Virus record (IMG/VR): IMGVR_UViG_3300042731_004164
Coordinates: 1 to 47,604 of that record
DNA from: a virus
Length of the DNA stretch: 47,604 bases
Reading direction: 5' to 3' (one strand)
Shown here: positions 16,474-47,604 of the stretch, in pieces
Numbering within the stretch: the stretch's first letter is position 1
How the letters are laid out: the number at the start of each line of letters is the position of its first letter
Program-made: the position numbers and the translations under genes
The notes under the pieces: generated by a model
What the model saw: the letters and a program-made list of their open reading frames with translations, nothing else
What the model was told of the DNA's origin: nothing
Database searches by the model: none

Positions 16474-16503
16474 AAAACTTAGGTTGTCCGAAAGGTGTTG
16501 TCA

Positions 16504-17211: not shown

Positions 17212-18493
17212 GGAACCGCCTCGGCACGGTAAGAGTGAACTTGGTAACAAGTACCTTTCGTCATGGCATCAGGGGAGGTTCCCCGATCTCGATTTGATTT
17301 TGTCCTCGGCCACGGACGACTTGACGCGTACCTTTTCCCAGGCGTCTCGTGACATCTTGATTGAGCATGGTCCGTCGGTTTTTGGCCATCGTGTCCGTAA
17401 GGACGTTCGGTCAGCTCACCGATGGCAGATGGAGGCGGGCGGTCTTGTTACCGCGGCAGGCGTTGGCGGCTCTATCATGGGACGCGGTGCTCATGGCCTT
17501 TTGATCGACGACTACATTAAAAATATCGAGGACGCTCTTTCTGAAAGGATCCGCGACAAAATATACGAATGGTACCTGTCGACAGCGTCTACCCGGCTGG
17601 CGCCAAACGCCTGGGTGGTGATCATCGCCACTCGCTGGCATCGTAAGGACCTGATCGGGCGGCTGCTTGAGGATGCAAAAACCGGTGGCGAGCAATGGTG
17701 TCGCCTAAGGCTCCCGGCGATTGCCGAAGAGAATGACCCGCTCGGGCGAAAGCCAGGCGAAGCTCTGTGGCCGGAACGGTTCCCGATCGAGTGGTTGGAG
17801 AACGTCAAGGGAAGATACAAGGCGTCCGGCTATGACTGGATGTGGGAAGCCCTCTATCAGCAGAACCCGCCGGACGTGCTTGACGCCGAGTTCAAGCCGG
17901 AGTATTTCCCGGACAGTATGTGGTTTACCGACTGGCCGGCGGAATTGGTCCACCGGGTCCAGACGTGCGATCCGTCGCTCGGCAAAACGGACAAGAGCGA
18001 CTACCAGGCCCACGTCATGCTCGGGCTGGATTATGGCGGCACGCTGTGGGTCGAGGCGGACCTTCGACGCCGTGACCGTGTCCAGATCGCCGCGGATCTC
18101 CTCGACTTTGCCAGCATATTCCACCCGGAGATCATTGGCATCGAAACGAATATGTGGCAGGTCATGCTCGCGGACGAAGTGTGGCAGCAGAGCAAGAACC
18201 TTGGTATGGCAGAGAATATCTGGGAGATAAACAACTGGGAGAACAAGATCGTCCGGATCCGATCTACCTTGACGTCTTACCTTGCTCGGGGGGCTCTTCG
18301 ATTTCGCGACACGCCGGGCACTCGGCTCCTGGTCGAGCAACTCAAGGGATTTCCCACCTGCAAGCATGACGACGGTCCCGACGCGCTCGAGATGGCGGTC
18401 CGGATCGTGCGTGAGGTATTTCGGCGTGACATCAATGGTCAATCGCTTGATGAGGGCGATGACATTATCGCCGAGCAAGGCTTACTGTACTAG
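16973..18493 (+). CDS. terL: Terminase large subunit (ATPase/nuclease)
   Basis: 506 aa. N-terminal ATPase: Walker A EPPRHGKS (81-88), Walker B GLLIDD (174-179), coupling motif IATRWHRKD (217-225). C-terminal RNase H-like nuclease: CDPS with D332, the ETN segment with E390, and DDGPDALEMA with D466/D469. Together these drive DNA translocation into the prohead and cut the concatemer. ATG 16973 is the first start; 16982 or 17045 are also possible, and the conserved part begins near residue 26. The gene overlaps terS by 239 bases. A promoter-like sequence follows its stop. Confidence 0.95.
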   Translation: MRVMPSSDVNRSLLEASLSPAFLAMHVSGAQWKPARHLMLLDSILERVATGSPLLPEQRWIAPMIGLKDPTKSIKRLMIEEPPRHGKSELGNKYLSSWHQGRFPDLDLILSSATDDLTRTFSQASRDILIEHGPSVFGHRVRKDVRSAHRWQMEAGGLVTAAGVGGSIMGRGAHGLLIDDYIKNIEDALSERIRDKIYEWYLSTASTRLAPNAWVVIIATRWHRKDLIGRLLEDAKTGGEQWCRLRLPAIAEENDPLGRKPGEALWPERFPIEWLENVKGRYKASGYDWMWEALYQQNPPDVLDAEFKPEYFPDSMWFTDWPAELVHRVQTCDPSLGKTDKSDYQAHVMLGLDYGGTLWVEADLRRRDRVQIAADLLDFASIFHPEIIGIETNMWQVMLADEVWQQSKNLGMAENIWEINNWENKIVRIRSTLTSYLARGALRFRDTPGTRLLVEQLKGFPTCKHDDGPDALEMAVRIVREVFRRDINGQSLDEGDDIIAEQGLLY

Positions 18494-18533: not shown

Positions 18534-21305
18534 ATGCCAGAATCTACGCCAACGCTCGAAAGTCTCGAGCGCGAACACCGAACCAACCAGCTCCAAATGG
18601 AGGTGACTCTGCAACGTGCCGAGATGCAGGCCCTCAGCCGTGCGCTGGCTCTCGACTCGCTAAGTCGGAGCTTCGGATCGGCAGGTCCCCAAGACGCGAT
18701 GGAGAGCGTCTATACCGACGATTACGTCAATCCGCAGGACTATCTACGAGAGAGCGGATACCAGACGTTCGGATCCACCTATACCACGAAGAACGACCGT
18801 AAGGACGGCGACAACTATCCCCATTGGACCAGCGAGACGGAATTGGCGTCGATTCGCGGTGTGGTCCGGCTAATCGCGACGTACAACAAGACGTGCATCG
18901 GCATCAACCGGAAGCTGTGCAATTACGTGGTTGGTGACAAGGGATTTGCGCGAAAGGTCATCAGCAAGCGTGGGGCACCGGATGAGTTGCTTAAGGCATG
19001 CGAGACGATCCTCGACGAGTTCGACGAACGGAATCAGATACCGGGCGACCTAGACCGCGAATACTGTCGCAGAGACGTCCGTGATGGCGAGCTTGGACCA
19101 TCCTTGTGGCATCGTGGCGACGGATTGGTTGATCTTCGGACGGTCGAGCCGGACCAGGTGAGTGAGCCGACGAACCCGGGTGAGTTGGAAGATTGGTTGC
19201 GAACCGAAAACCAGATGGGTAACGATGGCGTTAGCGGGCTCCCGTTCGCGAGCAGTTGGTCGTATGGGGTCCACACTACCAAGAGTGACGTTTGTGCGAA
19301 GCACGGTTACTACGTCCAGTGGGACAGCGACACGAGCAGTTGGGACTACATGCCCGGCGGCAACGAGCCATGCTATCCGCCCGCGTCGGGCATGAACACC
19401 TGGATGGAGCTTTGGAAGGCGAACACGGATCGCAACATCAAGCGGGGCGTCAGCGATTACTTTGCCATGGGTAGCGATTTCGAGCTCGCCCGGAAGCTGA
19501 TGCGGAATCTCACGCACGCGGGTGCCTTGCAGTCGTCGATCGCTTGGATCCGCGAGATGGCACCCGGGGTCACTAAGCAGCAGATTACGGACAGCTCGCT
19601 ATCGTATGCGGATCGGGTCGTCCAGCGAGACACGTCGTCCGGCACGCGAACCAGTTACCAGGTGGATTACAGGCCTGGCACTTCCCTGGCCATGCCATCG
19701 AGCCAGAAGTTTACCAAGCCTCCGTGGACCGAGCAGGGGAACGCCCTGGCCCTTATCTCTATTTTCGAGGCCATGCTTCGAAGCATCGGTCAGATTTGGT
19801 CCATGCCCGAGCACATGATAACGGGCTCGGCCGCTAATAATAACTACGCTTGCCACGACGAAAAAACGGAGCTGTTGACAAAGCGAGGTTGGCTGAGGTT
19901 CGACGAGATCCAGTTTGGTGATGTTGTTGCCACCATGAATCCGAAGACCAAGATGTTTGAGTGGCAGGAGCTACAAGACATCCATATCTATGACCATAAG
20001 GGCGAAATGGTCGCATTGAAAAGCAAGCACAACTTCGATCAGCTCGTGACGCCTAATCATAGGATGTTTTTTTCGTCGGAAGGAATAGCTGGAAGAGAGG
20101 CTATTAGGGATCATAAAGAATTTTACCAATTCAAAGAAGCGTCTGATCTTGAGCATGGAGATTATTTGCCAACAGCATGTGATGGAAAGACCGTCGACTC
20201 GACTCCGAAGTTTGTAGTAATACCGGCCGTAAATCACAACAGGAGTTACAAGAACCAGTTAAGCCATCCGTCAGACGTAAAAATACCGCTGGATGTTTTT
20301 CTAAAGTATCTTGGGTGGTGGGTTTCGGAAGGATGGATCAGTGAAACAAACCCGGATCATGGAACCTACAAGATAGGAATATCACAGAAAATCGGGTCAG
20401 ATGAGTGCGTCGAAATCGAATCTACCCATGCATCCATGCCGTATTCACACCGGTATTACGATCGCTCCAATGGCATGAGGACGTGGTACATCTACGACAA
20501 GAGCTTACTGGCATGGCTTAAGGAAAACTGCGGTAGTGGTGCTTACGACAAGAAATTGCCGGAATTTGTCCACGGGCTGCCAGCATACAAGCAAGAGATT
20601 CTCCTTAAGGCATTGGTGTCTGGTGATGGAACGTCACACAAAAGTGGATCGATGCATTACTTCACTGTGTCGAAGCAGCTTGCAGATAATGTTCAGTCGC
20701 TAGCAATCCAGTGTGGTTATGCTTCGCATGTCGAAAAGCCAATGTCGAATGGAGTCATCCCGATCTCGATTCGTGCCGTGAATAAACGCGGAATGCTAAA
20801 AAGCAAGCATATCAGGTCGGTTCCGTATGCTGGCAAGGTGTGGTGCGTTACCGTTCCGAATGGAATCGCGATCACGCGAAGAAACGGAAAGATGGCCATC
20901 ACTGGCAATTCAATTCTTGAGGCCGGAAGCCCGTTCGTCAAGGAGATCGAGGCCCGCCAGGGTCGCCATATCAAGATATGGACTTCGATCTATTGGAAGG
21001 TGCTTTGGTTCAACTGGCGGATTGGTCGTTTGGGCAAGTATTCGTGGGAGGATATTCGCTACGCGGTCGAGATCCAACTGACCGGCCCGCAAGTGGACGT
21101 GCGAGACCGGCTTAAGGAGACGCAACGCAATTCCATCATGAAGAGGGACGGGATCTTGTCTCCGGTGACTTACGGATCGAGAGAGGGTCTCGACTACGAT
21201 GACGAAATGAAGCTCGGCGCGAAGCAGCAAGAGCCTCAAGTTCCGTCGTTCGGCTTGGGGGCAGTTCAAGAGTCGGCGGGTATTGACTGGAGGGCGTATC
21301 CATGA
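18534..21305 (+). CDS. Portal protein interrupted by an intein
   Basis: 923 codons: portal extein residues 1-439 and 793-923 (570 aa after splicing) around a 353-residue intein. Extein features fit the lambda-family portal: a helical N-terminus, ASIRGVVRLIATYNKT, the long stem/wing region, and SMPEHMITGSAANNNYA joined across the intein to SILEAGSPFVKEIEARQ, which is the conserved NYxS-type region of such portals. The portal is the ring through which DNA enters and leaves the head. No Shine-Dalgarno precedes the ATG at 18534. The gene ends overlapping the next start (ATGA). The fold assignment rests on motif order and on position between terL and a Mu F-like gene. Confidence 0.88.
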   Translation: MPESTPTLESLEREHRTNQLQMEVTLQRAEMQALSRALALDSLSRSFGSAGPQDAMESVYTDDYVNPQDYLRESGYQTFGSTYTTKNDRKDGDNYPHWTSETELASIRGVVRLIATYNKTCIGINRKLCNYVVGDKGFARKVISKRGAPDELLKACETILDEFDERNQIPGDLDREYCRRDVRDGELGPSLWHRGDGLVDLRTVEPDQVSEPTNPGELEDWLRTENQMGNDGVSGLPFASSWSYGVHTTKSDVCAKHGYYVQWDSDTSSWDYMPGGNEPCYPPASGMNTWMELWKANTDRNIKRGVSDYFAMGSDFELARKLMRNLTHAGALQSSIAWIREMAPGVTKQQITDSSLSYADRVVQRDTSSGTRTSYQVDYRPGTSLAMPSSQKFTKPPWTEQGNALALISIFEAMLRSIGQIWSMPEHMITGSAANNNYACHDEKTELLTKRGWLRFDEIQFGDVVATMNPKTKMFEWQELQDIHIYDHKGEMVALKSKHNFDQLVTPNHRMFFSSEGIAGREAIRDHKEFYQFKEASDLEHGDYLPTACDGKTVDSTPKFVVIPAVNHNRSYKNQLSHPSDVKIPLDVFLKYLGWWVSEGWISETNPDHGTYKIGISQKIGSDECVEIESTHASMPYSHRYYDRSNGMRTWYIYDKSLLAWLKENCGSGAYDKKLPEFVHGLPAYKQEILLKALVSGDGTSHKSGSMHYFTVSKQLADNVQSLAIQCGYASHVEKPMSNGVIPISIRAVNKRGMLKSKHIRSVPYAGKVWCVTVPNGIAITRRNGKMAITGNSILEAGSPFVKEIEARQGRHIKIWTSIYWKVLWFNWRIGRLGKYSWEDIRYAVEIQLTGPQVDVRDRLKETQRNSIMKRDGILSPVTYGSREGLDYDDEMKLGAKQQEPQVPSFGLGAVQESAGIDWRAYP
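19851..20909 (+). mobile_element. Intein with LAGLIDADG-type homing endonuclease
   Basis: 353 residues, C440 to N792 of the portal. It starts CHDEKTELLTKRGWLRF (block A, Cys1), has LVTPNHRMFF (block B TxxH) at intein residues 65-74, and two dodecapeptide-like helices (FLKYLGWWVSEGW at about 150-162 and LLKALVSGDGTSH at about 251-263). The C-terminal blocks are YAGKVWCVTV and MAITGN followed by Ser+1. The residue before the final Asn is Gly, where His is usual. Self-splicing would leave NNNYA-SILEAG. The endonuclease could home into intein-free portal genes. The intein looks AT-richer than the flanking extein. Confidence 0.9.
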
Positions 21306-33774: not shown

Positions 33775-34149
33775 GAGACGGCAGCGAGGACTTGTGATGA
33801 CTGCATTGCGTGGGTATTCGATTCCAAGGGCAAGTTATCCCTTAACAAAGTTACCGGCGAGCCACTACGTCGACCGCCTGGCATGTCGCCCCCTTGCCAT
33901 TCATGTCCGAAGTGTGATCGATCAGATGAAAAGAGCCCGGAAGCAGGAAGGAAGCGAGACCTCAGCCGAAAAAATCGGTTGACGCTGGAGCGTTACTACG
34001 AGCACCTGGCTGCTCCGGGTCCGGTCGACTCCATTATGAGGAAGAATTTCGGAATCCTTCACGAGATTTTTGCTACCCATGATCGAAATATGCAACAAGT
34101 CTTGTTGATGAATCAGCAGGACATTTTGTTAATGAAGCGGATGTTGTAA
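33754..34149 (+). CDS. Tail assembly chaperone C-terminal part (T-like)
   Basis: 131 aa if started at ATG 33754; expected to be made mainly as a transframe fusion of about 288 aa. Has a CDDC (residues 12-15) and CHSCPKC cysteine set near the N-terminus, which may bind zinc, then helices (NRLTLERYYEHLAA, MNQQDILLMKRML). It lies between the G-like part and the tape measure, the place of the lambda T domain. Its stop overlaps the tape measure ATG (TAATG). Confidence 0.7.
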   Translation: MFQLTHPETAARTCDDCIAWVFDSKGKLSLNKVTGEPLRRPPGMSPPCHSCPKCDRSDEKSPEAGRKRDLSRKNRLTLERYYEHLAAPGPVDSIMRKNFGILHEIFATHDRNMQQVLLMNQQDILLMKRML

Positions 34150-36695
34150 TGTCCACCTCTTCGAGAGAAGTTGTCTACTATCTGAAGACGCAATTGGATT
34201 CGTCGATCGCTTCGGGGTTCGGCGATGTGGCACGTCATGCGCGGTCTGCCGAGGATGAGATCAACAAAGCATCTAAGGAAATTGCGAAGTCGGCCAAGGA
34301 TTCCGCACGGGAAGCAGAACGTGAGCAGAAGGAGGCGCTGAAGCTTGCCGCTGCCGTCGCCAAAGAGAAAGAGCGGATCGCCAAGGAGTCCGCACGAGTT
34401 GAAGAGCGTGAACTTAAGGAGGCTTTAAGGGCCGCCGCCGCCGTCGCCAAGGAAAAGGAGAAAATTGCGAAAGAAGCAGCCAAAGCTGAGGAACGGGCCG
34501 CGAAAGAGATCGCGCGTGCCGCCGCTGCTGCGGCCAAGGAAAAGCAACGTATCGCGAAGGAGGCGGCCAAGGCGGAAGAGCAGGAATCGAAAGAGGCCTT
34601 GCGTGTGGCCGCCGCCGTTGCCAAGGAGAAGCAACGTATCGCGAAGGAGGCGGCCAAGGCGGAAGCCAGGGAGGTGGCTGCTGCCGAGAAGGCGAAGGCA
34701 TCGGCAGCCAAGCAGCAGTTGGCATTGACCCAGAAATCACAGCGAGCGTCGGAGAACTATCACCGATCGCTTGTGAATCTGGTTTCAGGCGAAGAGGGGC
34801 TCCTCATGTCCGGCATGAAGATAGCCCGTGGCGGAACGATGCTGTTTGCCAAGAATGAAGAGGACATTCAGAAGATCCTCAAGAAGCTCATGGTGGTGCA
34901 GGGGCTTTACGACCTGATGGAAGGGTCGGTCAAGCTAATGCGCGGGCTGAGGACTGTCTATGCCAACTACACGGCTGACGTGTTGGCGTCTGCCGCCGCT
35001 CAGACCGCCTCTGCCGCGGCTGCCACGTCGGCCGCGAAGGCTCACGCTCAGGACGCCATTGCGGCTCGGGCCGATGCGGTTGCCAACCAACAGCTTGCAG
35101 CGGCGTCCTCTCAGTCGGCCGCTGCGCAAGGTGCGAGCGGTATGGCTGCGGGAGCAAGGGGATTCGGGTCTTTGGCCGGTCGCGGACTCATGGCCGGTCG
35201 CGGTGCTCTCGCCGCCATCGGTGGCGGTAGTGTTGGTGTTGGTGCTGGCGTTGGAGTTGCGATGGTTGCCATTCCCGCGCTTGTGTATAAAGCGTCAACG
35301 CATGGACCGCAAGCGGAGGCTCAATGGCAGCAGCGACGTACCGAGATCATGGAAGAGTCTCGGGCAAATATGGTTAGGTATGATCAGTTCTACCGCAGTG
35401 GATACAGCGAAATAGGTGGTATCGAGCGTGAGCGTAGGTCAAACCGCGATTCGGTCGCCCAGTACCGTCAACAGGCGAGGATGGATTCGATTGCCCGGGG
35501 CAGAGGTGCTCTTGATCTTTCGGCCCTGACGGAAGGCTGGACGGGCGTCGGTTCGGGAAGACCGGGCCAGTTGCAATTCGATGCTGTCCGCAAGGCGCTC
35601 GGCAAGGACATGGCCGTCGGAAACGCCGAGCGGGCAGAGCGTCGAAAGCAGGTCGAGCAGGCTGAGGCAGTGCTCCGATCCAAGCAGCAGGCCTACGAAG
35701 CGGCAAAGCAACAGGCTGACATTTTCGAGCAGAATAAGTTTCTTGTCGAAAGCAATGCCAGCGTTGCGAAGCTCAAGGCTGAAGAGTACCGCGAAAGAGG
35801 AGGTGGAAGAGGTTTTTTAGGAAACTTCCTTGGTGTCGGGTCTGCTATTCGCTTTGCCGGAGAGCATATGGAGTTTGTCACGCCATTGGCTTGGGCTGAC
35901 AAGATGGGTAGGTGGGGGGCTGGCAGAGATTCGCGGTCCGGGATAACCATTCAGCAAGAGCGCCTTGATGAGAGAGCCAAGTATGGCGAGCAGGCCATGA
36001 AGGGTGCCGCAGAGCAGTATAATCAGCAGCAGGAAAAGGTAAACGCTGCTTACGAAGAGCAGCAAGAAGCTCTCCAGAAAGTCATAGATGCAAAAAAGGA
36101 GCAAGGTCGCACTGATCAGGAGGTTTCTCAACGAGCCATCCAGAACGCTCAAAACTATATCAGCACGCTGAAAGGGGTCCACAAGCAGGCACTTGAAAAT
36201 GCATCAGCGCTCGAAAAGAGTTCGCGTGCGTTTGAAATTGGAACAGTTGTTGGAGATCCTACTGAGCATTCTAGGCTGAAACGTGCTATCAATCGTGCCG
36301 AGTCCGGAAAGGCAACAACTAGGGATTATCACTATCTTGCCAGTAGGGCACTTACAGAAAAAAGACGAGAAGAGTTCGAACTAAAAGCACTCGAAACGAT
36401 GACCGCAAAACAGCGGGAAGAAGCTAAACGCGAATCAAAATATATGGGCGGAGGAGACAGTGAGACCGAGTCTCGTCGAAAGTACGCCAAGATGGTCGCT
36501 GAGGAAATCAATAAGCAAACGGATTACGTCGAGGATATGAGGAAAGCGGCCGGTGATGCGGCCGAAAGCATGGCGAATCGAGTTGCCGAGCTGATGGAGC
36601 AGCTTGTCAAAATGATGGACCAAAAGTTTGTGGATGCCATCAACAAAAGGATTTCCGAAATGAACACTCAGAGCAAAAGCGTGGCGGGACCATGA
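34149..36695 (+). CDS. Tail tape measure protein
   Basis: 848 aa. Residues 40-200 are long Ala/Lys/Glu coiled coil, with four nearly exact 29-aa repeats (for example RELKEALRAAAAVAKEKEKI, then AKEAAKAEE). A hydrophobic stretch at about 355-380 (IGGGSVGVGAGVGVAMVAIP) fits the membrane-active segment of tape measures. The C-terminal 400 residues are charged helix. Size sets tail length; a tail of roughly 125 nm could be guessed from 0.15 nm per residue but that is only a rule of thumb. Followed by the distal tail gene with a four-base overlap. Confidence 0.85.
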   Translation: MSTSSREVVYYLKTQLDSSIASGFGDVARHARSAEDEINKASKEIAKSAKDSAREAEREQKEALKLAAAVAKEKERIAKESARVEERELKEALRAAAAVAKEKEKIAKEAAKAEERAAKEIARAAAAAAKEKQRIAKEAAKAEEQESKEALRVAAAVAKEKQRIAKEAAKAEAREVAAAEKAKASAAKQQLALTQKSQRASENYHRSLVNLVSGEEGLLMSGMKIARGGTMLFAKNEEDIQKILKKLMVVQGLYDLMEGSVKLMRGLRTVYANYTADVLASAAAQTASAAAATSAAKAHAQDAIAARADAVANQQLAAASSQSAAAQGASGMAAGARGFGSLAGRGLMAGRGALAAIGGGSVGVGAGVGVAMVAIPALVYKASTHGPQAEAQWQQRRTEIMEESRANMVRYDQFYRSGYSEIGGIERERRSNRDSVAQYRQQARMDSIARGRGALDLSALTEGWTGVGSGRPGQLQFDAVRKALGKDMAVGNAERAERRKQVEQAEAVLRSKQQAYEAAKQQADIFEQNKFLVESNASVAKLKAEEYRERGGGRGFLGNFLGVGSAIRFAGEHMEFVTPLAWADKMGRWGAGRDSRSGITIQQERLDERAKYGEQAMKGAAEQYNQQQEKVNAAYEEQQEALQKVIDAKKEQGRTDQEVSQRAIQNAQNYISTLKGVHKQALENASALEKSSRAFEIGTVVGDPTEHSRLKRAINRAESGKATTRDYHYLASRALTEKRREEFELKALETMTAKQREEAKRESKYMGGGDSETESRRKYAKMVAEEINKQTDYVEDMRKAAGDAAESMANRVAELMEQLVKMMDQKFVDAINKRISEMNTQSKSVAGP
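34322..34669 (+). repeat. Four tandem 87-base repeats in the tape measure gene
   Basis: Four copies of an 87-base unit encode 29-residue Ala/Lys/Glu helical repeats; copies three and four share long identical runs (KEKQRIAKEAAKAE is repeated exactly). Such arrays can expand or contract by recombination and alter tail length. Confidence 0.7.
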
Positions 36696-37436: not shown

Positions 37437-38702
37437 ATGAGTACGATTTATTGGGTTGGCGATGCGGCTGCAATCGCACAAGTGGACACGTACACGGTTG
37501 GCGGGACGATCGAGGTAGGTGACAAGTTCAATCTCACGGTCGGAAACAAGACGCTTACCGTTTCGGCTACGTCGACGTCTGCCGAGACGGTTGCGCAGGC
37601 GATCGTTACTGCATGGAACAACTTGACGACATCCAACGCTCCAGAGTTTGCCGAGATTACAGCAGCTCATACCAGCGGTGGTGAGTTTACCTTGACTGCG
37701 GACACTCCCGGCAAGCCGTTTACGGTGAGTGTCGAGACGACCGAATCGGATGACGGTGCTGCCGACGATCAAACGTTCACGGGTTCGACCACAACGGCTT
37801 CTGCCGGTCCGGCCGATGCTTCGACAGTCACGAACTACAGCGGTGGGGCTTTGCCGTCCAACGGAGACATCCTGATCTTCGAGAACAGCTCGAAGTCGGT
37901 GCTTTATGGGTTGGATGCTCTTTCAGGGGTCACGCTTTCGGTTCTTGAGGTCAGGCAGTCGTATACGGGTTGGATCGGGCTACCGAGAACCAATGGGACC
38001 GGAACCAACAGCTATTCGGAGTACCGCGATCAGTATCTACAGGTTGGTGCTACGAGTTGGTGGATCGGTTCCGGGGACGGTAGCGGAAGCGGTCGGATCA
38101 AGATCGACTTCGGATCGGTCCAATACACGGGTGCCGTGCTTAACTCAGGATCGTCTTCGGAGGCCTATATCCCGTCCGTCTTACTGAAAGGAACTCACGC
38201 GAGCAACTCTCTGATGGTACTCAAGGGCACGGTCGGGGTGGCTTTCTTCGCAGGGGAAACGTCGACACTATCCGAAGTGAAGATCGGCTACGTCAGTAGC
38301 GTACTTGGCGACGCGAATGTCCAGCTCGGTGATGGCGTGACACTAACAACCGTCACGAAGGCAGGCGGCAATCTGTCACTGAGCAGCAACGTGACGACGC
38401 TCACGCAGTACGACGGGCAGACGAACATCAGCGGATCGGCAACCATCGGCACGGCGAATGTCGATGGCACCTTGGTGGATCGCAGTAGCGGCACGTTTAC
38501 GAACGTCACGCTTACTGGAAAGGGTGTTTACGATAACAAGAGCCTGACGGCCAAGACGATTACAAACCTTACTATGTACGCAAACACCACCTATAAAGAC
38601 CCTTACGACTTTGTAACGTTGACAAACGGCATCGTCCTGAGCGGCTGCAAGCCATCGCAGGTGACGATCGACATCACGACCGGAAAAACGTTGAGTATAT
38701 AA
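37437..38702 (+). CDS. Beta-rich tail structural protein
   Basis: 421 aa. Opens with MSTIYWVGDAAAIAQVDTYT. Residues 15-120 form a Thr-rich beta domain, and the rest is Gly/Ser/Thr repeats like a beta-helix (TLSEVKIGYVSSVLGDANVQ, then LTTVTKAGGNLSLSSNVTTL). Such solenoids occur in phage fibres. It overlaps the next gene by one base. Confidence 0.55.
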   Translation: MSTIYWVGDAAAIAQVDTYTVGGTIEVGDKFNLTVGNKTLTVSATSTSAETVAQAIVTAWNNLTTSNAPEFAEITAAHTSGGEFTLTADTPGKPFTVSVETTESDDGAADDQTFTGSTTTASAGPADASTVTNYSGGALPSNGDILIFENSSKSVLYGLDALSGVTLSVLEVRQSYTGWIGLPRTNGTGTNSYSEYRDQYLQVGATSWWIGSGDGSGSGRIKIDFGSVQYTGAVLNSGSSSEAYIPSVLLKGTHASNSLMVLKGTVGVAFFAGETSTLSEVKIGYVSSVLGDANVQLGDGVTLTTVTKAGGNLSLSSNVTTLTQYDGQTNISGSATIGTANVDGTLVDRSSGTFTNVTLTGKGVYDNKSLTAKTITNLTMYANTTYKDPYDFVTLTNGIVLSGCKPSQVTIDITTGKTLSI

Positions 38703-40402
38703 TGGCTGACAGACACGGCCTGGCTTATTTCCCGGGCATCGAACAAGTCGAAAGCGGATCACTCAGCCACACGGTCGGCATCTCTCCGTCCGTGGCTACC
38801 TTGACGATAGCTCCGCAGCTCAACTTCACGGCCCAAGTTGGCACGCTCACGTTTTTCGATGGTGTCGAACAGGTTGAATGGAAGGACGCAAGGATCGACG
38901 TGAACAGCTTTGAGCTGAACGCATCTGGCCTTGTTTGGCGATTGTCGATTTATGATCGGAGATGGAAGTGGCAGTCGTCTGGCGGCGGCAGCTCGATCTC
39001 GCTTGGTGCCAATCTTCGCGACGACAAGGGCGAATTGATAAAGGCAACGGAGATGAACCCTCAGGACGTTGCGAAGAAGTGCCTCGAAGCGATGGGTGAA
39101 TCGGATTATGACGTGAGTGCGCTTCCAGAGGTAGAGCGTCCTGAGCTGCTTTGGGACAGTGAGCTTCCGGCTCAGTGCCTTGAGAGTCTTAGTGAGATGT
39201 TTGGCTGTTGCGTGGTGCTTGGGTTCGACAATAAGGTCAGAATATGCAAGATTGGCGAAGGTGCCGATCTGCCGTCCGACTTGATAATGAAAGACAGCGA
39301 GTCGCTTCGTATTCCGGGCATGCCGAAGAAATTGACGGCTGTCTGTGCTCCCGATCTGTTCCAGATCGACGTGGCTTTGGAGCCGGTCGGCATTGAGAAT
39401 GATCGATACGGTACGCTCAAGTCTATTTACAAACTGAGCTATGAGCCTGATGGCGGTTGGGAAGACCAAGACGTCATGTTCATGGATGGCGTGGAGGATG
39501 AGAAAGATCGAGAGCTTGCAAAGAAGTCTGTTTTTCGTTACTACCGTGTTCAGTTCCCTATCTACAAGATTTATGGGTATACGGACAGCAAGGGCAAGGA
39601 AGATGCAAAAATTACCTATCCTTGGCAGATTCGCCTTGAGAACTTCCAGGTGGAAACGATTCAGGAAGATTGGGGATTGCCCGAATCGCAGCAGAGACGT
39701 AAGCCTCCGGTGGTATTTGGCGTCTATCATAAGGAACAAGACGGCAACGACGGAAACAACCACGATGAAGTCATTTTCCCTTACACTTCCGATTATGATG
39801 AGTTAGAGGTCAAAGACTACAGTTGGAATCTTGGAAGTGAGGCATCTATCGGGAAGGCGAACGATCATTACGTGGTTTTTGATCGTCCGATCTACAAGTA
39901 CGAAGACGGTTATTATCCAGCCGATCTGATTCTGAGAATAGCGTGTACTATACTCGATGAACACACGTTTGCACCGGTCCGGACTACTTTCGATATGGAT
40001 ACGGGTAGTGAGCTGGAGACCGAGCCACGCTACGAGCCGTTTGCGGACTTGCAGGTGTGGCATTACTATGATTTGTTTTTCGAGAAAAAGGTGGTTGACA
40101 ATAAGAAGGAAGTCAAGAAGGACGCGGACTATTATCTTGATGGTTTGATGAAGCAGTACGCTATGACTACGCCCCAAACCATCGATTACGCCGGGATGCG
40201 GTGCATCGAGCTTGACGGTGCTATCCAGCACGTATCGATTTCCTTTGGTCCTTCCGGATGCACGACGACGGCGAGCAGAAACAACGAGCAGCTGAACCGA
40301 ACGATGCCGTTGAGCTATAGAAAATTCATGGCCAACGTTAAGAGTAATTTGCGTGGGGTGAAGCAAAACAAAATGACATTGCGAAAGCACAGGCACGAAT
40401 GA
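38702..40402 (+). CDS. Putative tail hub/baseplate protein
   Basis: 566 aa. The early region resembles tail hub proteins: LNFTAQVGTLTFFDGVEQVE, VWRLSIYDRRWKWQS, AQCLESLSEMFGCCVVLGFD and DNKVRICKIGEG. It follows the distal tail and beta-rich proteins and precedes the Ser/Pro-rich proteins, which is the place of the central hub or receptor-binding platform. The family cannot be fixed from motifs. Confidence 0.55.
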   Translation: MADRHGLAYFPGIEQVESGSLSHTVGISPSVATLTIAPQLNFTAQVGTLTFFDGVEQVEWKDARIDVNSFELNASGLVWRLSIYDRRWKWQSSGGGSSISLGANLRDDKGELIKATEMNPQDVAKKCLEAMGESDYDVSALPEVERPELLWDSELPAQCLESLSEMFGCCVVLGFDNKVRICKIGEGADLPSDLIMKDSESLRIPGMPKKLTAVCAPDLFQIDVALEPVGIENDRYGTLKSIYKLSYEPDGGWEDQDVMFMDGVEDEKDRELAKKSVFRYYRVQFPIYKIYGYTDSKGKEDAKITYPWQIRLENFQVETIQEDWGLPESQQRRKPPVVFGVYHKEQDGNDGNNHDEVIFPYTSDYDELEVKDYSWNLGSEASIGKANDHYVVFDRPIYKYEDGYYPADLILRIACTILDEHTFAPVRTTFDMDTGSELETEPRYEPFADLQVWHYYDLFFEKKVVDNKKEVKKDADYYLDGLMKQYAMTTPQTIDYAGMRCIELDGAIQHVSISFGPSGCTTTASRNNEQLNRTMPLSYRKFMANVKSNLRGVKQNKMTLRKHRHE

Positions 40403-41733
40403 CGCAGCGATATACCGATCACGAACTCATGGATTGGCGGCCGGCAAAGAACGTCGGTGGCTCTACTGTCGGCGCGCGCGAAGTGGTCGAGATTTATGAC
40501 GGCAGCTCGCTTGATCGATCGAGGCTGGCGGTAGGCTTGCCGGACAAGGGTAGCAGTTTTGCCGTAAACGGCCCTCATCGATTGGGTGCTGGCAAGAAAG
40601 GCCGTGTTTGCTGCGGTCCTGTGGTTTTGGTCAAGTATAACCCTTCGACGGGCACTCCGTCTGTCGGATCGTTGTGGAAGCCGTCGTCAGGAAGCGGCTC
40701 GCTCATCAAGTATATCACCGGAAACTTCCGTTGCCTTCGCGTCGTCAGCACGAGCGATTCCTTGATGCTCGCTCAGATATTGGACCCCGAGTTGGTGCCG
40801 TTTCGCCTTACCGACACCCTGTATCCTCTTGGGTCAACGACAGCGAACCTCTTTTACAGGCCAGAGGACTGCGGTGGATCGCCACCGTCCATGCCGATTT
40901 TAGTTCGCGACACGATCGACATCATGGGCCCTCAGGTTGACCCCGATACAGGAGGCCCGAGAACCCAGGCGGATGCCGACTGCTGCGGCTGGGCCCGCAA
41001 GACGACCGAGACTTACGGTGCTCTGCGAATATACGACATTGTTTCGCTCGGTAGCGATTGCTGTCCGGAGTCGGCAAGCAGTTCATCGCCGAGCGGAGGT
41101 GTTCCGAGTTACCCGAGCTATTCTAGCTATCCAAGTGGGAGCCCTAGCAGCCCATCAAGTCCAGGTAGCCCGTCAAGTCCAAGCTCACCAGGTAGTCCAT
41201 CGAGCCCGATAAGTCCTAGCGAGAGCATTCCAAGTGGAAGCCCGGTCAGTCCGTCAAGCCCAGCTTCGCCAAGTAGTCCGTCAAGTCCCAAGTCAACGGC
41301 GATTGTGCCGGTCAGTTTCAACGACACTAGATACGCGGCACTATTTACGCTCGAAGCTCCCGAGGTTCGCTTTGACGACGTGATGATAGCTGCGATGAAA
41401 CCGGTTGATTCTTACCTTGGGATCGATCCGAAATTCATAGAGGTATGCCATCCTGGTACGATTCGCGTTTGTGGTTACTCAACAGACACTCCAGTGGTGA
41501 TGAGTGCGTTAGTTGAAGGTGACAAGGTCGCCGTTAGATTCAAGAGAGGATTATTCTCTTGGATAAAAAAACGCAAGAACATAAATGTTGTCGTTCGTCT
41601 TACAGGTATCCGCAAGGGATTCCTTGGAGTAAGGTTCCCGAGCCGAACAAAGAACCAGTTCGACCATAACGAACGATTCATCAACAGTGCGTACCCTGCC
41701 GAGGAACTACCAAATGAGTTACGGATCAAGTAA
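40399..41733 (+). CDS. Virion protein with Ser/Pro/Gly repeat linker
   Basis: 444 aa. Residues 1-220 form a Cys-containing globular part (VCCGPVVLV, CGWARKTT, CCPE). Residues 225-302 are Ser/Pro/Gly repeats with units SPSSPGSPSSP, and 303-444 a second domain with basic residues (FKRGLFSWIKKRKNINVVVR). The repeats would be an extended, protease-resistant and possibly O-glycosylated stalk. It overlaps the next gene by 20 bases. Function as tail tip or fibre by position. Confidence 0.6.
   Translation: MTQRYTDHELMDWRPAKNVGGSTVGAREVVEIYDGSSLDRSRLAVGLPDKGSSFAVNGPHRLGAGKKGRVCCGPVVLVKYNPSTGTPSVGSLWKPSSGSGSLIKYITGNFRCLRVVSTSDSLMLAQILDPELVPFRLTDTLYPLGSTTANLFYRPEDCGGSPPSMPILVRDTIDIMGPQVDPDTGGPRTQADADCCGWARKTTETYGALRIYDIVSLGSDCCPESASSSSPSGGVPSYPSYSSYPSGSPSSPSSPGSPSSPSSPGSPSSPISPSESIPSGSPVSPSSPASPSSPSSPKSTAIVPVSFNDTRYAALFTLEAPEVRFDDVMIAAMKPVDSYLGIDPKFIEVCHPGTIRVCGYSTDTPVVMSALVEGDKVAVRFKRGLFSWIKKRKNINVVVRLTGIRKGFLGVRFPSRTKNQFDHNERFINSAYPAEELPNELRIK
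41085..41295 (+). repeat. Ser/Pro/Gly codon repeat in first stalk protein
   Basis: Short units based on AGYCCN (Ser-Pro) with GGT/AGC interruptions encode SPSSP-type peptides. The copies are not identical at the third bases, so the repetition is maintained at protein level. Confidence 0.7.
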
Positions 41734-42676
41734 ATCATTCAGCTCGGTAAGTGAATCGTCAGGTAGCCCTGGGAGTCCGTCGAGCCCGGGTTCCTTGAGT
41801 GGTAGTTTTCCAAGCCCGATCAGCCCGAGTGGAAGTTTTCCCAGCGAGAGCTATTCGAGTCCGGTAAGCCCGAGCAGCCCGAGCATTAGCCGATCGAGCG
41901 ATGCAAGCCCGAGTAGTCCATCAAGTCTGTCTGGCTCGTCAAGCTTCAGCTCTCCTGTCAGCCCATCGAGCCAAAGCAGTTTGGGTAGCCCGTCAAGTCC
42001 AGGGTCGCCAGGAAGTCCATCGAGCCCAGGCAGTCCAAGCGGAAGCGTTCCCAGCGGCAGCCCGGTTAGCCCGTCGAGTCCGGTATCACCGAGTAGTCCC
42101 GGCAGTCCCAGCGAGAGCTACCAAAGCCCGGTCAGTCCGGCGAGTCCCAGTTCGCCAAGCCCAAGCAGCCCCGGTAGTCCTTCGAGCCCGGTATCGCCAA
42201 GCAGTCTGAGCGATAGCTATTCAAGCACGCCAAGCCCGAGCAGCTCGCCAAGCCCCAGCAGCCCCGCTTCTCCGAGCTCTGAATCGTTTACTCCGAGCCA
42301 ATGGCCATGTTCATACTGTGATACAGGCACCACGTCGCGATATCTGAAAGTTAATATTGCAAATTGTGCCGCGGACGGGATTCGTGGCGCGGCGAATGGT
42401 GACCAAGTTTTAGAGCATACTCAAGGGGATCCGTGCAATTGGTACAAAGTTATAGAGTATGAAGAGCCTACTTCAGACATCGCGATCGTCGTCGTGATCT
42501 ATAACAACGGAGGTGATGTCTTTCGTGAGTGTTATGTGTTGGACTACGAAACAGGCGGTTTTTGTACTGGGTTGTCTAATTTGGGACCGGCAACAATCGA
42601 CTGCGAAAATGATCTGATCGGAGAGGTTGGCATGCCTGGTTATAATACAGAGCTTGAAATTCTCGATGCCTACTAA
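41714..42676 (+). CDS. Mucin-like Ser/Pro/Gly repeat protein with C-terminal domain
   Basis: 320 aa from ATG 41714 (CGAGGA site upstream). About 195 residues are Ser/Pro/Gly repeats (SSPGSPGSPSSPGSPSG and variants), more than half of all residues being Ser or Pro. The last 120 form a Cys-containing beta-rich domain (CSYCDTGTTSRYLKVNIANC, then NWYKVIEYEEP). The domain probably binds a partner; the repeat would be a rigid mucin-like spacer and a good O-glycosylation target, with glycosyltransferases encoded next door. Its end overlaps the start of the glycosyltransferase polyprotein by 11 bases. Confidence 0.65.
   Translation: MSYGSSKSFSSVSESSGSPGSPSSPGSLSGSFPSPISPSGSFPSESYSSPVSPSSPSISRSSDASPSSPSSLSGSSSFSSPVSPSSQSSLGSPSSPGSPGSPSSPGSPSGSVPSGSPVSPSSPVSPSSPGSPSESYQSPVSPASPSSPSPSSPGSPSSPVSPSSLSDSYSSTPSPSSSPSPSSPASPSSESFTPSQWPCSYCDTGTTSRYLKVNIANCAADGIRGAANGDQVLEHTQGDPCNWYKVIEYEEPTSDIAIVVVIYNNGGDVFRECYVLDYETGGFCTGLSNLGPATIDCENDLIGEVGMPGYNTELEILDAY
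41757..42294 (+). repeat. Long Ser/Pro/Gly codon repeat
   Basis: About 540 bases made of irregular Ser-Pro-Ser/Gly codon triplets. The DNA copies vary in third position, so this is not a perfect microsatellite or CRISPR; it is protein-level low complexity. A second, shorter array lies at 41085-41295. Confidence 0.75.
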
Positions 42677-45600
42677 GCTAGACCAAAAAAAAAGAACCGA
42701 CATTCGGCGAAAACCTGAATTGTCGGTCGATGAACTTCGCGAATGGAATGAGGCCGGTTATCCTGTCCGACCGATGGTAGACGTACATCGGCTTTGGTTT
42801 TCACTCTGTAAGGAGTGCGGTAAATGTTCGATACCGACAATCCGTGTCGGGACGTTCGAGTGTCCGGATGGGAAGTGGAGTGATGTCGAAAAGTCGAACC
42901 ATTTCGCAGGTGCCCACGCTCGATGGGTACATGCCGGAAAACCGAAACGGCCCAAGGAAGAGGTCGAGCAGATTATCGAAAATCACTGCAAGAAGTGTGA
43001 TCAATACGAGAGCAGGGAATGCCTCCTGGTTTGTCGGACGTGCAGCGATCCTGAAAAGGTCTTGGAAAAAGTGAAATGGTCAACGGAGGTTTGTCCGGAG
43101 GGTAAATGGTCCGATGCCGGAATGGTTGACGGTGCGGTTGGCTCCCGTGTTGACGTTGTAATTCCGCTATCGAATAAAAGTTTGTGGGGTGATGGCGAGC
43201 TACGTTACGCACTTCGATCGCTCGAAAAAAATCTCCTTGATTTAGGTCGAGTTTTCATAGTAGGGCATAAACCGAGCTGGCTCACCAATGTCGAGCACAT
43301 ACCGGCCGACGATATTTACAAGCATGGAAAAGACGCTAACCTTTTCCGCAAGGTACTCATGGCGATCGATGCCGGTTGTTCTCGTTTATTCATCCGCCAG
43401 TCGGACGATCAATGCTTGCTGAAGCCGATGTATGGTCGAGAACTTTTGCCGCGATACGCGAATGAAGTGAAAGAAAACCCTGATGCCAAGGATTGGTGGG
43501 CACGAATGGAGCGGACACGCGAGGCACTTGCCGAGCGTGGCTACCCGACGATGTTTTACGATTGCCACATGCCGATCCTGTGCGAGACAGAAGCGTTCCG
43601 CCGCGCAGCCGGTGAGTTCGACTGGGCCACGTCACCGAGTTTGTGTATCAACACGCTCTACTGCAATGCCGCCGGGTCCAAGGCTACGGGGTCTATTCCG
43701 CTTACTGGCGCGACGTTAAGCAAGCATGAGTTGAGCGGCACGTCCGACGAGATCGTTGCAGCGTGTCAAAATCCGGAGCGGATCAGCTTTAATTACAATG
43801 GAAAACGTATCCCGAAAAGGCACAGAGAGGCACTACATAAAATGTTTCCCGAGCGATCACGATTCGAGTTGTCCGACATACCGTCCGAAAAGGACGCCGC
43901 CTTGGTTTCCGCGATCGCTCGCGGCAAATGCAAGGATTCGCAATATCGGCACATTCTCTCTGAGATCGAGAAGCGGTGCCCGTGTAACGTTCTTGTCTTC
44001 GGGTGTGGTGCTGACTCCAGGCTCTGGAACGAGGCTAACGCTGGCGGTCGGACGCTGTTTATCGAAAACAATTGCCGCTGGGCTAGTATGGCCCGCAATG
44101 AAGACTGCGAGGTGATCGAGACGACGTATAACAGCAAACGCGGTGTCGGCGCCATTGACGGTCCTGTCCCGGAGGAACTGCAAGAAGCACTAAGCCAGAA
44201 ATGGGATGTGGTATTTATCGATGCACCACGCGGAAACAAAAGCAACACTCCAGGCCGCGAGCTGCCGATCCGCTGGACCTCGCGTCTGCCAGGCGAGCCG
44301 TTGGTTTTCCTCCACGATTATAACCGCGACTGGGAGAGCCGATGTGCGAAGCAATACTTCAAGACGGAGTCAGCTCATGTTGTTGGAAAGAGTTTGGGTG
44401 TGTGGCAGTTGGGAGAAGGCCAATTTGAAATAGGTGATGCGCTAGAGCATGCGATCGCTCATGGATGGTGTAGTGAGGATAATTATCGTGAGATCATTGC
44501 GGAAATCGAGAAAAACAGACCATGCAACATGCTTGTCTTCGGCTGTGGCCATGACTCAAAGTTGTGGCATAAAGCCAATGCCGGAGGTCGGACGCTATTT
44601 ATTGAGGACAAACGCCGTTGGGTCCGCCTTGCTCGCAATGAAGGATGCGAGGTAATACGAACATCTTACGAAAGCACTCAAGGCGTAGATGCTCCGGACG
44701 TTCCGCCTCCGGATGAGCTACAAGAAGCATTTCGGCAGGAATGGGACATCGTTTTTATTGACGGGCCGAGACGGAATCAATACGGCAATCCAGGCCGCGA
44801 GCTACCTGTGCGATGGACATCAAGACTTCCTGGATCACCGATTGTCTTTATGCATGATTACACCCGTCGATGGGAAGGTTACTGCGCTAAGAAATACTTT
44901 AAATCAGAACCATTACGTGTTATCGGTTCACAGTTGGATGATGGTTCGCAATTGGCAGTATGGCAACTTGACAATCGCCAGGAGTTGTCCGAGGTGCCTG
45001 ATCATGCGTGGACTTACTGGGATGGTGCATGTCCTGCTTGGATCGAACTTTGCCTTGAAACAATGAGACGGAATATTCCTGGTATTAATATCCTGACTCC
45101 GACCACGTTTGCGAGGCTATATGCAGAGCATCGCGGTCCAGACGATCCTTACGATCTGTTGTCAACAATGCCAGCATTGAGCAGGGCGTGTCAGCGAAGC
45201 AACATAATTCGCACATGGCTACTGAAAACTTTTGGTGGAACGTGGATAGATGCGGATTGCATTGTATTGAGTGACGTCAGGGAACTTTGCAAAAAACACA
45301 TGGCCGGAAAAGATCTAGTTACATATAAATACGACAACAAATTCTCGGTTGATGCATTGTTGATGTCACGGCCCAATGGCCAAGTCATCAGCGAATGTGC
45401 GAGACAGCAGCAAGAGGTATTACAAGACAAGCGGAAACGCCTCAATCGTCAATCGCTTGGTCCTCCAATACTGCAAAGGGCAATTGCTATCATAGGAGAG
45501 CGCGAGGTTGGCGTCATACCAACAGAACTTGTTGACCCGGCTCGCGGTGGTCGTAGACGACAATATCTTGCTGAAGGCAAGCTGCCGAAAGGATGTGCCT

Positions 45601-46487
45601 GTGTGATGCTACGTGCAAAGACAGGGAAAAATAAACTATTGTGGACCAGAGACCAGTGGCTGTCTCCTGAGTGCTATCTTTCAACCATATTTCGCCGTGC
45701 CCTTGGTATGAATGAAAAAAATGATAATGGCGTTTTGATAATTTCAATCGGACGAAAACGCAGGCAGTTATTGTGGGATTGTTTGGCCGGGCTTCAGCGT
45801 CATAATCCTGATGTTCCTGTCCATGTCGTCAGTGACGTGCCTGTGGACGTTCCGTTTACATGGGCGGATCCGAAATACCAAAATTTTCTTTCACGTCACT
45901 ACAAGACGCAGGCTCACAAGCTTAGCCCATTTAGTGGTGTGACCCTCTTGATTGACGATGATACTATTGTCAACAAGCCACTCCCTCCGTTAGATGAACT
46001 TATTGGCGATGGTGATGTTGCACTTGTGAAGGAACCAACTTATCCAACTGTAGAACGAATTTGCAACAGAAAAGGCTCTGGGAAAGTTAAATACAGGGAA
46101 GAGCAGAATTACACAAGGGAAATGTGCCAGGCTGATCAGCCACACTATAATTCAGGTGTATTTGCTTTTAGGAGAACTCAAAAAGTAATAGAAATGTTCG
46201 ACTGTTGGCATGAAGAATGGCTTCGCTATCAGTCTCTTGACCAACTTGCTCTCTGTCGCGCAATGGCAAATTTCCCGATGCAGGTTAAAGAAATTGATGG
46301 TTCTGAGTTTAATTGTCATAACGACCTTTTTGACTATAAAAATCTAGACCCTACAATTTTCCATTTCTCACGAAGTAGTGGTCGCAACTGGTTTTACGAT
46401 AATCATTATGGACCTGCCAATCCTCACGAAAAATACTTGGAATTTTGCAAGACCGGTGCTAATCGACCAAAGGAATATGTGATATGA
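42666..46487 (+). CDS. Multidomain sugar transferase/O-methyltransferase polyprotein
   Basis: 1273 aa from ATG 42666, overlapping the previous stop by 11 bases. Domains in order: two Cys-rich modules ending in CPDGKWSD (66-73) and CPEGKWSD (143-150); a Stealth-like transferase (162-~400, with VDVVIPLSNKSLWGDGELR and RLFIRQSDD); two tandem glucuronoxylan O-methyltransferase-like domains (about 424-582 and 604-767; VFGCGADSRLW / VFGCGHDSKLW, FIDAPRG / FIDGPRR, FLHDY / FMHDY); a GT32/capsular-synthesis-type transferase (781-960, GGTWIDADC); and another GT-A domain (1022-1260, LLIDDDT, HYNSGVFAF). It probably builds a methylated glycan in the cytoplasm. No signal peptide or membrane segment. Confidence 0.75.
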   Translation: MPTKLDQKKRTDIRRKPELSVDELREWNEAGYPVRPMVDVHRLWFSLCKECGKCSIPTIRVGTFECPDGKWSDVEKSNHFAGAHARWVHAGKPKRPKEEVEQIIENHCKKCDQYESRECLLVCRTCSDPEKVLEKVKWSTEVCPEGKWSDAGMVDGAVGSRVDVVIPLSNKSLWGDGELRYALRSLEKNLLDLGRVFIVGHKPSWLTNVEHIPADDIYKHGKDANLFRKVLMAIDAGCSRLFIRQSDDQCLLKPMYGRELLPRYANEVKENPDAKDWWARMERTREALAERGYPTMFYDCHMPILCETEAFRRAAGEFDWATSPSLCINTLYCNAAGSKATGSIPLTGATLSKHELSGTSDEIVAACQNPERISFNYNGKRIPKRHREALHKMFPERSRFELSDIPSEKDAALVSAIARGKCKDSQYRHILSEIEKRCPCNVLVFGCGADSRLWNEANAGGRTLFIENNCRWASMARNEDCEVIETTYNSKRGVGAIDGPVPEELQEALSQKWDVVFIDAPRGNKSNTPGRELPIRWTSRLPGEPLVFLHDYNRDWESRCAKQYFKTESAHVVGKSLGVWQLGEGQFEIGDALEHAIAHGWCSEDNYREIIAEIEKNRPCNMLVFGCGHDSKLWHKANAGGRTLFIEDKRRWVRLARNEGCEVIRTSYESTQGVDAPDVPPPDELQEAFRQEWDIVFIDGPRRNQYGNPGRELPVRWTSRLPGSPIVFMHDYTRRWEGYCAKKYFKSEPLRVIGSQLDDGSQLAVWQLDNRQELSEVPDHAWTYWDGACPAWIELCLETMRRNIPGINILTPTTFARLYAEHRGPDDPYDLLSTMPALSRACQRSNIIRTWLLKTFGGTWIDADCIVLSDVRELCKKHMAGKDLVTYKYDNKFSVDALLMSRPNGQVISECARQQQEVLQDKRKRLNRQSLGPPILQRAIAIIGEREVGVIPTELVDPARGGRRRQYLAEGKLPKGCACVMLRAKTGKNKLLWTRDQWLSPECYLSTIFRRALGMNEKNDNGVLIISIGRKRRQLLWDCLAGLQRHNPDVPVHVVSDVPVDVPFTWADPKYQNFLSRHYKTQAHKLSPFSGVTLLIDDDTIVNKPLPPLDELIGDGDVALVKEPTYPTVERICNRKGSGKVKYREEQNYTREMCQADQPHYNSGVFAFRRTQKVIEMFDCWHEEWLRYQSLDQLALCRAMANFPMQVKEIDGSEFNCHNDLFDYKNLDPTIFHFSRSSGRNWFYDNHYGPANPHEKYLEFCKTGANRPKEYVI
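43935..44966 (+). repeat. Tandem 540-base duplication of methyltransferase-like domain
   Basis: Two copies (about 43935-44411 and 44475-44966) encode the same domain at a constant offset of 180 residues: CGADSRLWNEANAGGRTLFI and CGHDSKLWHKANAGGRTLFI. The DNA has diverged at many third positions, so the duplication is not recent. Confidence 0.8.
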
Positions 46488-47203
46488 AGACATGGATACC
46501 AAGAAGTGGAGTAGCTGAGTGGAGCATTACGTATCGTTGTAACCTGAAATGTACGTCATGCTGTCGCTTTTGCTACTTGCCACCAACCACAGAAGATATG
46601 ACAATCGAGGATGCCAAACGATTTGTCGATGAGGCTCGTGAATTGGAGTGGAGGCCTGAGATATGGATTATCGGTGGTGAGCCTACGCTTCACTCACAGT
46701 TCTTGGACTTTGTTGAGATTGCTTGCGGATTCGGTTCGATTCGGGTCATGTCGAACCATTTTACAGATGAATCGCGTTCGCTTTTAGGGAAAGCTGAAAA
46801 GCTACGGCCCGGTTGTGTTCGTTCGCTCAGCGCAAAACCAACAGGTGCCGTCGACCATTTCCGCCGAGATTACTGTATTGCACCGCGAGATTTCGATGCG
46901 TGTAGAGTCAATCCATGTCACGTTCACTCTGGCTACAAGCGAGGGTGTGGAATTTCTGTGGACCATGAAGGCTATACCGTTTGTCCAAACGGCGGCGCGA
47001 TAGACGGAATACATAAACTCGGCATACGAACTAAAAAGCTAGCTGATTTGTTCGATCCCGAATTTGCCGCGAAGCAGACAGAAGTATTGTGCGGACAATA
47101 CTGCGGGTGTGAGTGGGTTCCTAAAGACGACCCAACAAGTCTTCTTTGTGAACGCTACAATATACCTGTTTCTCCAACGTGGAAGGAGGCGTTTGAAGTC
47201 TAG
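46484..47203 (+). CDS. Radical SAM protein with C-terminal Cys cluster
   Basis: 239 aa, ATGA-coupled to the polyprotein. EWSITYRCNLKCTSC carries the C-x3-C-x2-C motif (C19, C23, C26), and WIIGGEPTLH the GGEP motif (64-67). A later set of cysteines (CRVNPCHVHSGYKRGCG, CPNGG, CGQYCGCEW) fits the SPASM-type auxiliary cluster region that ends in a Gly-rich tail. The protein may modify a peptide or sugar together with the polyprotein; the adjacency suggests a common product, but the reaction is unknown. Confidence 0.8.
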   Translation: MKTWIPRSGVAEWSITYRCNLKCTSCCRFCYLPPTTEDMTIEDAKRFVDEARELEWRPEIWIIGGEPTLHSQFLDFVEIACGFGSIRVMSNHFTDESRSLLGKAEKLRPGCVRSLSAKPTGAVDHFRRDYCIAPRDFDACRVNPCHVHSGYKRGCGISVDHEGYTVCPNGGAIDGIHKLGIRTKKLADLFDPEFAAKQTEVLCGQYCGCEWVPKDDPTSLLCERYNIPVSPTWKEAFEV

Positions 47204-47604
47204 TTAGTTCTGCTTCCTTAAGACACCAGCCGCTATTTTTTTTGGTGTATCCAATATTGTTCCTCGCGGATCGATTGGTCTGCGCATTATGTCAATTGCG
47301 CCTGTTGACCACTTAATAACAATGCCTTCTTTCGCTGGAACCCACGTTCCTGTTGCACCACCGGAATGTTTTGTTGTTCCGTTTTGATAGATAGTCCATC
47401 CTGCAGCCCGTTTACTGCCAACAGGCCAAAGTTTCCATTTCCCAGCCAAATAAAGCAGGTCCGCATCCTCTTTCGACAGGTTGTTGTTTTTAGCCGTGAG
47501 TTCCTTCACCCGTCCCTCGGCCTTCATCTTTTCGAGCCCGCTCAGCTTCGGCATGGCCGCAGTATAGTATTTGACGGCTCTTTCCTCGGCCGTCTTTTTG
47601 AGCT
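47204..47604 (-). CDS. Hypothetical protein on the minus strand, 5'-truncated
   Basis: The frame is open beyond the window edge; the first Met in the window is at 47554 but codons before it (TAEERAVKYYTAAM) look coding, so the start lies outside. About 133 codons are visible. The C-terminal part (GWTIYQNGTTKHSGGATGTW, IVIKWSTGAIDIM) has the Trp/Gly strand pattern of small beta-sandwich proteins. It converges on the radical SAM gene with no gap and no hairpin, marking the edge of the plus-strand operon. Unassigned. Confidence 0.55.
   Translation of the reverse strand, partial: LKKTAEERAVKYYTAAMPKLSGLEKMKAEGRVKELTAKNNNLSKEDADLLYLAGKWKLWPVGSKRAAGWTIYQNGTTKHSGGATGTWVPAKEGIVIKWSTGAIDIMRRPIDPRGTILDTPKKIAAGVLRKQN

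Follow-up and report, generated by a model that had tools for sequence, protein, structure and literature searches.

What would an uncultured tailed phage build with a single gene that joins glycosyltransferase (GT) and O-methyltransferase domains and begins inside the end of a serine-rich gene? We addressed this question for a multidomain enzyme encoded in the IMG/VR virus record IMGVR_UViG_3300042731_004164, which was analysed over its whole stretch of 47,604 bases (hereafter the window); because the record is classed as linear, the window is possibly a fragment. The gene order is a tail module, two Ser-rich genes (SP1 and SP2), the 1273-codon open reading frame (ORF) of the enzyme and a radical S-adenosylmethionine (SAM) gene. 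Our best explanation, to which we assign a probability of roughly 0.6, is that this block is the portion of a late tail operon devoted to glycan assembly, from which a soluble multi-enzyme would build and O-methylate a glycan on Ser-rich tail stalks.

An earlier note, made from the letters of the window, had described the enzyme as a giant polyprotein in a single 1273-codon frame. The frame was borne out when counted from its ATG; a start at the in-frame TTG (42627) would lengthen the product to 1286 amino acids (aa). The term polyprotein is loose because nothing suggests cleavage. From the N to the C terminus, the enzyme comprises two Cys motifs, a Stealth-type domain, two GXMT domains, a GT32-like domain and a GT8-like domain (Table 1). 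The DxD and SAM-pocket residues that the note had proposed to check are all intact, namely SDDQ (aa246), LVFGCG (aa443 and 623), FID(A/G)P (aa517 and 697), DADC (aa862) and DDDT (aa1097). The enzyme has no likely membrane span and is predicted to be soluble. Its start overlaps the end of SP2 by 11 bases, the SP2 stop ending at 42676, and its stop overlaps the start of the radical SAM gene as ATGA, in agreement with the coupling described earlier. Searches of viral sequences found no close relatives of the whole enzyme.

The evidence linking such enzymes to Ser-rich genes came from SP1. Using its C-terminal domain as the sole query, which renders the search blind to GTs, two scans identified 51 further viral loci; with the window, these form 28 clusters at 85% SP1 identity. 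A GT is encoded within ~9 kb downstream of SP1 in 22 of the 24 clusters with enough downstream sequence, a count that includes a weak GT1 match (L105), a weak GT9 match (L100) and one group with its GT9 on the other strand. One exception (L117) encodes a 1004-aa protein with two Cys motifs like those of the window and only a weak GT2 match. The other (L118, 10400-11184), alone among the SP1 viruses, has a Cys-rich instead of a Ser-rich stalk and no GT cassette directly downstream, the nearest Stealth gene being 7 kb away.

A Pfam run on 93 ORFs located up to 7 kb downstream of SP1 and on an equal number upstream placed the GT families on the downstream side. The downstream ORFs matched GT25 (12), Methyltransf_24 (6), GT8 (4), Stealth (4), GT71-type (3) and GT9 (3) as well as sulfotransferases, FkbM, pyruvyltransferase and radical SAM. 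The upstream ORFs matched tape measure, tail tube, tail completion and capsid families, together with one weak sulfotransferase and a few methyltransferase matches; no glycosyltransferase was found among these 93. A direct tally with hidden Markov models gave matches after SP1, and no match lay entirely within the sequence preceding it (up to 10 kb).

The cassettes themselves turn over. Across the loci, GT25, GT71, GT32, GT8, Stealth, sulfotransferase, methyltransferase and pyruvyltransferase modules were seen, often fused. Two loci from a Stealth scan (L013 and L021) have SP1 relatives just upstream of other fused enzymes, Stealth-GT71-FkbM methyltransferase (857 aa) and Stealth-Methyltransf_24 (~850 aa), respectively. 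In a marine group, SP1, the adjacent GT25 and a downstream gene are nearly constant and the slot between them varies by genome, which demonstrates module exchange. Because relatives swap their downstream enzymes, each virus would carry a different glycan, and such variation would be as expected for shielding or for receptor-related variation.

SP1 and SP2 probably associate with the tail tip or a fibre, and their Ser-rich stalks would be long and disordered. In the structural model of SP1, the stalk is disordered and the C-terminal domain is beta-rich, and a fold search showed a resemblance to viral tail and tail-fibre proteins (E 2.5e-4 to 6e-4); a fold search of the PDB returned adhesin, pilin and tail-fibre matches only, all non-significant. 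SP2 contains 98 Ser in its first 195 aa. The earlier note had called SP2 a Ser/Pro/Gly-rich virion protein into which the enzyme gene extends by 11 bases; the overlap is there, and a place in the virion would fit the position of the Ser-rich genes and the fold. A second Ser-rich gene usually comes next after SP1 in the other loci, and many of these genes open with GS[SA]KSxSSVSES (20 of 52 with a strict pattern) and then diverge completely. The stalk repeat units vary by virus (SP[SG] in the window; SE, SG, SQ and SD elsewhere; TG in L105), and the stalks mostly stay rich in hydroxyl residues (Ser; once Thr). Overlaps of 4 or 8 bases commonly join SP1, SP2 and the next gene across loci.

The two tandem GXMT-like domains proposed earlier were recovered as two copies of PF21729 (GXM/IRX15; E=3.8e-39, 134.6 bits vs a cut-off of 27.8); the stricter plant model TIGR01627 was not reached (133 vs 150 bits). 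Because the copies share only 61-63% protein and 68% DNA identity, the duplication is old and an assembly artefact is unlikely. Both retain the SAM motif and acidic residues (LVFGCGxDS, FIE, FIDxP) and, in an alignment, the residues common to a stand-alone GXMT from another locus (L002). Searches of IMG/VR with a single sequence, two copies and three sequences found no GXMT, and a search of phage records gave no match. Locus L002 (1765-10922) is on a contig of phage-like character that was assigned to a Bacteroidota genome bin. A capsid-like gene, which has a match of 6e-18 to a known major capsid protein, precedes several GT genes with the GXMT gene among them. With the window, GXMT near virion genes is thus seen at least twice. 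The domains belong to the Pfam family of the plant DUF579 enzymes GXM1-3 and AGM1/2, of which AGM1/2 methylate glucuronic acid on plant O-glycoproteins (PMC6508755), and the phage domains may likewise methylate uronic acids. The plant enzymes, however, are single-domain Golgi proteins.

For the Stealth-like transferase, a profile built from four phage Stealth sequences matched the catalytic-domain structures of GNPTAB (GlcNAc-1-phosphotransferase) at 6e-9 and CpsY at 4e-4, which upholds the assignment although the Stealth_CR2 score is below its cut-off. PHROG 7999 (6e-21) spans the Stealth part, and a Caps_synth match (1.3e-4) is below the Pfam cut-off. The domain shares with GNPTAB and CpsY a CR1-like VDVV, the CR2 Asp-Asp motif and a CR4-like end, but it is shorter, divergent and below Pfam cut-offs, and the CR4 Asn-Asp is missing: NYNG stands in the place of CLND or CIND. 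All nine phage records tested match CR2 below the cut-off, and seven of them have the CR4 profile at the domain end, weakly each time (E=0.005 in the window).

The GT32-like assignment is decided by a separate protein in the same genomic slot of another virus (L116), which is 27% identical to the GT32 part over 250 aa (E=3e-19) and passes the Pfam cut-offs of both GT32 and GT8. In the window itself, the GT32-like part has DAD and the GT8-like part has DDD and NSGVFAF, with both scores below cut-off; the GT8 domains of other viruses in the same slot score above it. Both GT domains proposed earlier are probable, the GT8-like one being the weakest of the enzyme's domain assignments.

From domains, position and synteny, we infer the activities, their order, serine as the acceptor and the presence of the stalks in the virion as follows. 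The cytoplasmic enzyme, translationally coupled to SP2, would act on the Ser-rich stalks while the tail is being assembled or earlier. An early sugar or sugar-phosphate, perhaps the first, would be added by the Stealth-type domain; the GT32-like and GT8-like domains would extend the chain from nucleotide-sugar donors, and the GXMT domains would O-methylate it, perhaps as caps. The Cys motifs, which among the 52 SP1 loci occur only at the N terminus of three fused enzymes (window, L021/L112 and L117), are a possible metal-binding docking part and may anchor the enzyme to its target. The radical SAM protein, assigned to its superfamily by its CxxxCxxC motif and a profile score above cut-off, may alter a sugar or the protein; radical SAM searches gave no match in IMG/VR and none in phage records. 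The cassette of another SP1 locus (L109) also includes a radical SAM gene (16237-17415), next to a sulfotransferase gene and a GT25-sulfotransferase fusion. The earlier note's glycan on Ser/Pro stalks gains from the GT cassettes that follow Ser-rich genes in 22 of the 24 assessable clusters, with no GT found upstream; O-linkage to Ser, uronic-acid methylation and a mucin-like coat are tentative. Because Stealth enzymes are phosphotransferases (PMC10668966), transfer of a sugar-1-phosphate to serine is a concrete but tentative option. A bolder version, in which widespread uncultured tailed phages share a modular, fast-swapping tail-stalk locus, the Stealth-type domain transfers sugar-1-phosphate directly to serine and the product is an O-methylated phosphoglycan 'mucin' that varies by virus, is speculative and rather unlikely as a whole.

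Several results weigh against stalk glycosylation by this enzyme. Stealth_CR2 scores below the Pfam cut-off in the window (E=2.2e-6, 28.3 bits vs 39.4), as do the GT32 sugar-binding (0.024) and GT8 (0.07) matches of the enzyme, and an AlphaFold model of the GT32-GT8 part is not usable (predicted local distance difference test score of 38), probably because of few relatives. A Ser-rich stretch can also serve simply as a linker. Bacterial polysaccharide-type loci contain GXMT genes as well, so that the earlier note's own counter-case, in which host capsule loci hold the same domains, partly applies, with the phage-like L002 as a further setting. A Stealth profile scan of viral records gave 259 places, of which 80 were kept, and a Ser/Thr-rich ORF lay within 5 kb upstream in only 6 of 53 phage Stealth loci. 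We therefore rejected the rule that a phage Stealth gene adjoins a Ser-rich stalk gene: the Stealth domain has no general tie to stalks of this kind, and the link runs from SP1 to variable cassettes.

The enzyme might instead modify a different protein of the virion, for example that of the capsid or the tail tube, with its place after the Ser-rich genes reflecting operon position only. In mycobacteriophages, phage-encoded GTs act on proteins of the capsid and the tail tube (PMC12363180; PMC12619734), and the GXMT and GT genes of L002 lie downstream of a capsid gene; we nevertheless regard this as unlikely, since the cassette tracks SP1 across diverse viruses, with overlaps that run from SP1 through SP2 into the enzyme gene. 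Remodelling of a surface polysaccharide of the host in the course of infection, for instance to prevent superinfection or conceal the infected cell, would suit the Stealth, GT25, GT9, GXMT and pyruvyltransferase families, which are typical of bacterial polysaccharide loci, as well as the existence of host-type GXMT loci. We consider it quite improbable because the enzyme lacks a membrane span and its gene is coupled to those of the tail module; phages that convert serotype usually supply membrane partners as well. Modification of phage DNA is very improbable: the genes sit with tail genes, not with DNA-metabolism genes, and the cassettes hold the glycan families GT25, sulfotransferase and GXMT, even though phage GTs acting on DNA are well known, as a passage in PMC12619734 cites.

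Glycosylation of the stalks by a soluble multidomain enzyme has parallels in known systems. The chlorovirus PBCV-1 encodes soluble multidomain enzymes for its virion glycan: A064R joins two GT domains and a methyltransferase (PMC9614988), the combination with O-methylation predicted here, and A111/114R has three GT domains (PMC7826918). That algal virus, however, places N-glycans on its capsid with other enzyme families; the present case concerns a tailed phage with Ser-rich tail genes and a putative enzyme with a Stealth, two GXMT, a GT32-like and a GT8-like domain. In the Fap1 cluster of Streptococcus parasanguinis, a Ser-rich protein gene lies beside a set of GT genes, and Ser repeats are glycosylated sequentially in the cytoplasm, with one two-domain enzyme among those involved (PMC5207161). 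The same arrangement of a Ser-rich acceptor gene beside a GT cluster, which characterizes serine-rich repeat loci, is found in 22 of the 24 assessable SP1 clusters. Fap1, in contrast, is a bacterial surface adhesin with accessory Sec export and other GT families, and no methylation is described there; accessory Sec genes or a Gtf1/Gtf2 initiator were not among the downstream Pfam families listed, no search having been aimed at them. Mycobacteriophages (Che8, Corndog, Myrna) use phage-encoded GTs on virion proteins (PMC12363180), as proposed here, but their targets are capsid and tail tube, and neither a Ser-rich tail stalk nor a fused methyltransferase enzyme is described.

Phage virion glycosylation is known from few systems. 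Fused viral GT/methyltransferase enzymes are known too, separately from it. We found no description of a tail-stalk locus with exchangeable cassettes in the open literature, subscription literature being outside the scope. As a conserved marker, SP1 leads to what is probably a whole class of loci for tail glycosylation in uncultured phages, which isolate-based work would miss because no SP1 relative was found in 50,697 phage records. The loci are natural recombinants of sulfotransferase, methyltransferase, pyruvyltransferase and GT modules and a source of compact multi-enzyme glycan machines; whether phages carry mucin-like glycans, and for what purpose, becomes directly testable.

Table 1. 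Features of the tail and putative glycan-assembly region of the window.
Feature	Coordinates	Strand	Basis
Tape measure protein gene, 848 aa; marks upstream tail module	34149..36695	+	PHROG 2335 tail length tape measure, E=3.8e-4
Gene directly 5′ of SP1, 566 aa, in tail hub/baseplate gene place	38702..40402	+	Position only
SP1, Ser-rich tail-associated protein (probable), 444 aa; stalk aa225-298; conserved C-terminal domain 41293-41730	40399..41733	+	51 further viral loci; models; fold matches
SP2, Ser/Pro/Gly-rich protein, 320 aa; N-terminal motif GSSKSFSSVSES	41714..42676	+	Motif in relatives; composition
Multidomain glycosyltransferase/O-methyltransferase (predicted), 1273 aa	42666..46487	+	ORF call, Pfam, motifs
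Two Cys motifs, aa44-150, ending CPDGKW and CPEGKW	42795..43115	+	N-terminal motif comparison
Divergent Stealth-type transferase domain, aa160-405	43143..43880	+	Stealth_CR2; CR4 position; GNPTAB profile match 6e-9
GXMT/DUF579 methyltransferase domain 1, aa413-585	43902..44420	+	PF21729; alignment
GXMT/DUF579 methyltransferase domain 2, aa597-770	44454..44975	+	PF21729; identity to domain 1
GT32-like glycosyltransferase domain, aa779-1012; DxD aa862-864	45000..45701	+	PF04488 5e-5 for this record, below cut-off; L116 homology
GT8-like glycosyltransferase domain, aa1019-1255; DDD aa1097-1099	45720..46430	+	PF01501 0.003 for this record, below cut-off; WbbM profile match 0.003
Radical SAM protein, 239 aa	46484..47203	+	PF04055 3.1e-9, above cut-off; CxxxCxxC

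In a PHROG search, the window was found to encode a terminase (PHROG 38, E=3e-81), a portal and a tape measure protein. The 566-aa gene directly 5′ of SP1 has no Pfam match and no convincing PHROG match. Inside the tape measure gene, 87-bp tandem repeats (34293-34665) encode Ala/Lys/Glu-rich helical repeats. In its second half, the portal ORF (18534-21305, 923 aa) has additional matches to PHROGs of thymidylate synthase, PhoH and ribonucleotide reductase, which is suggestive of an intein within the portal gene. A second, weaker radical SAM candidate lies in the early region (4074-4922; Pfam 0.004, below cut-off). Facing the radical SAM gene of the block, a reverse-strand ORF of 132 aa (47204-47602), left open by the end of the contig, is a probable marker of where the operon stops.

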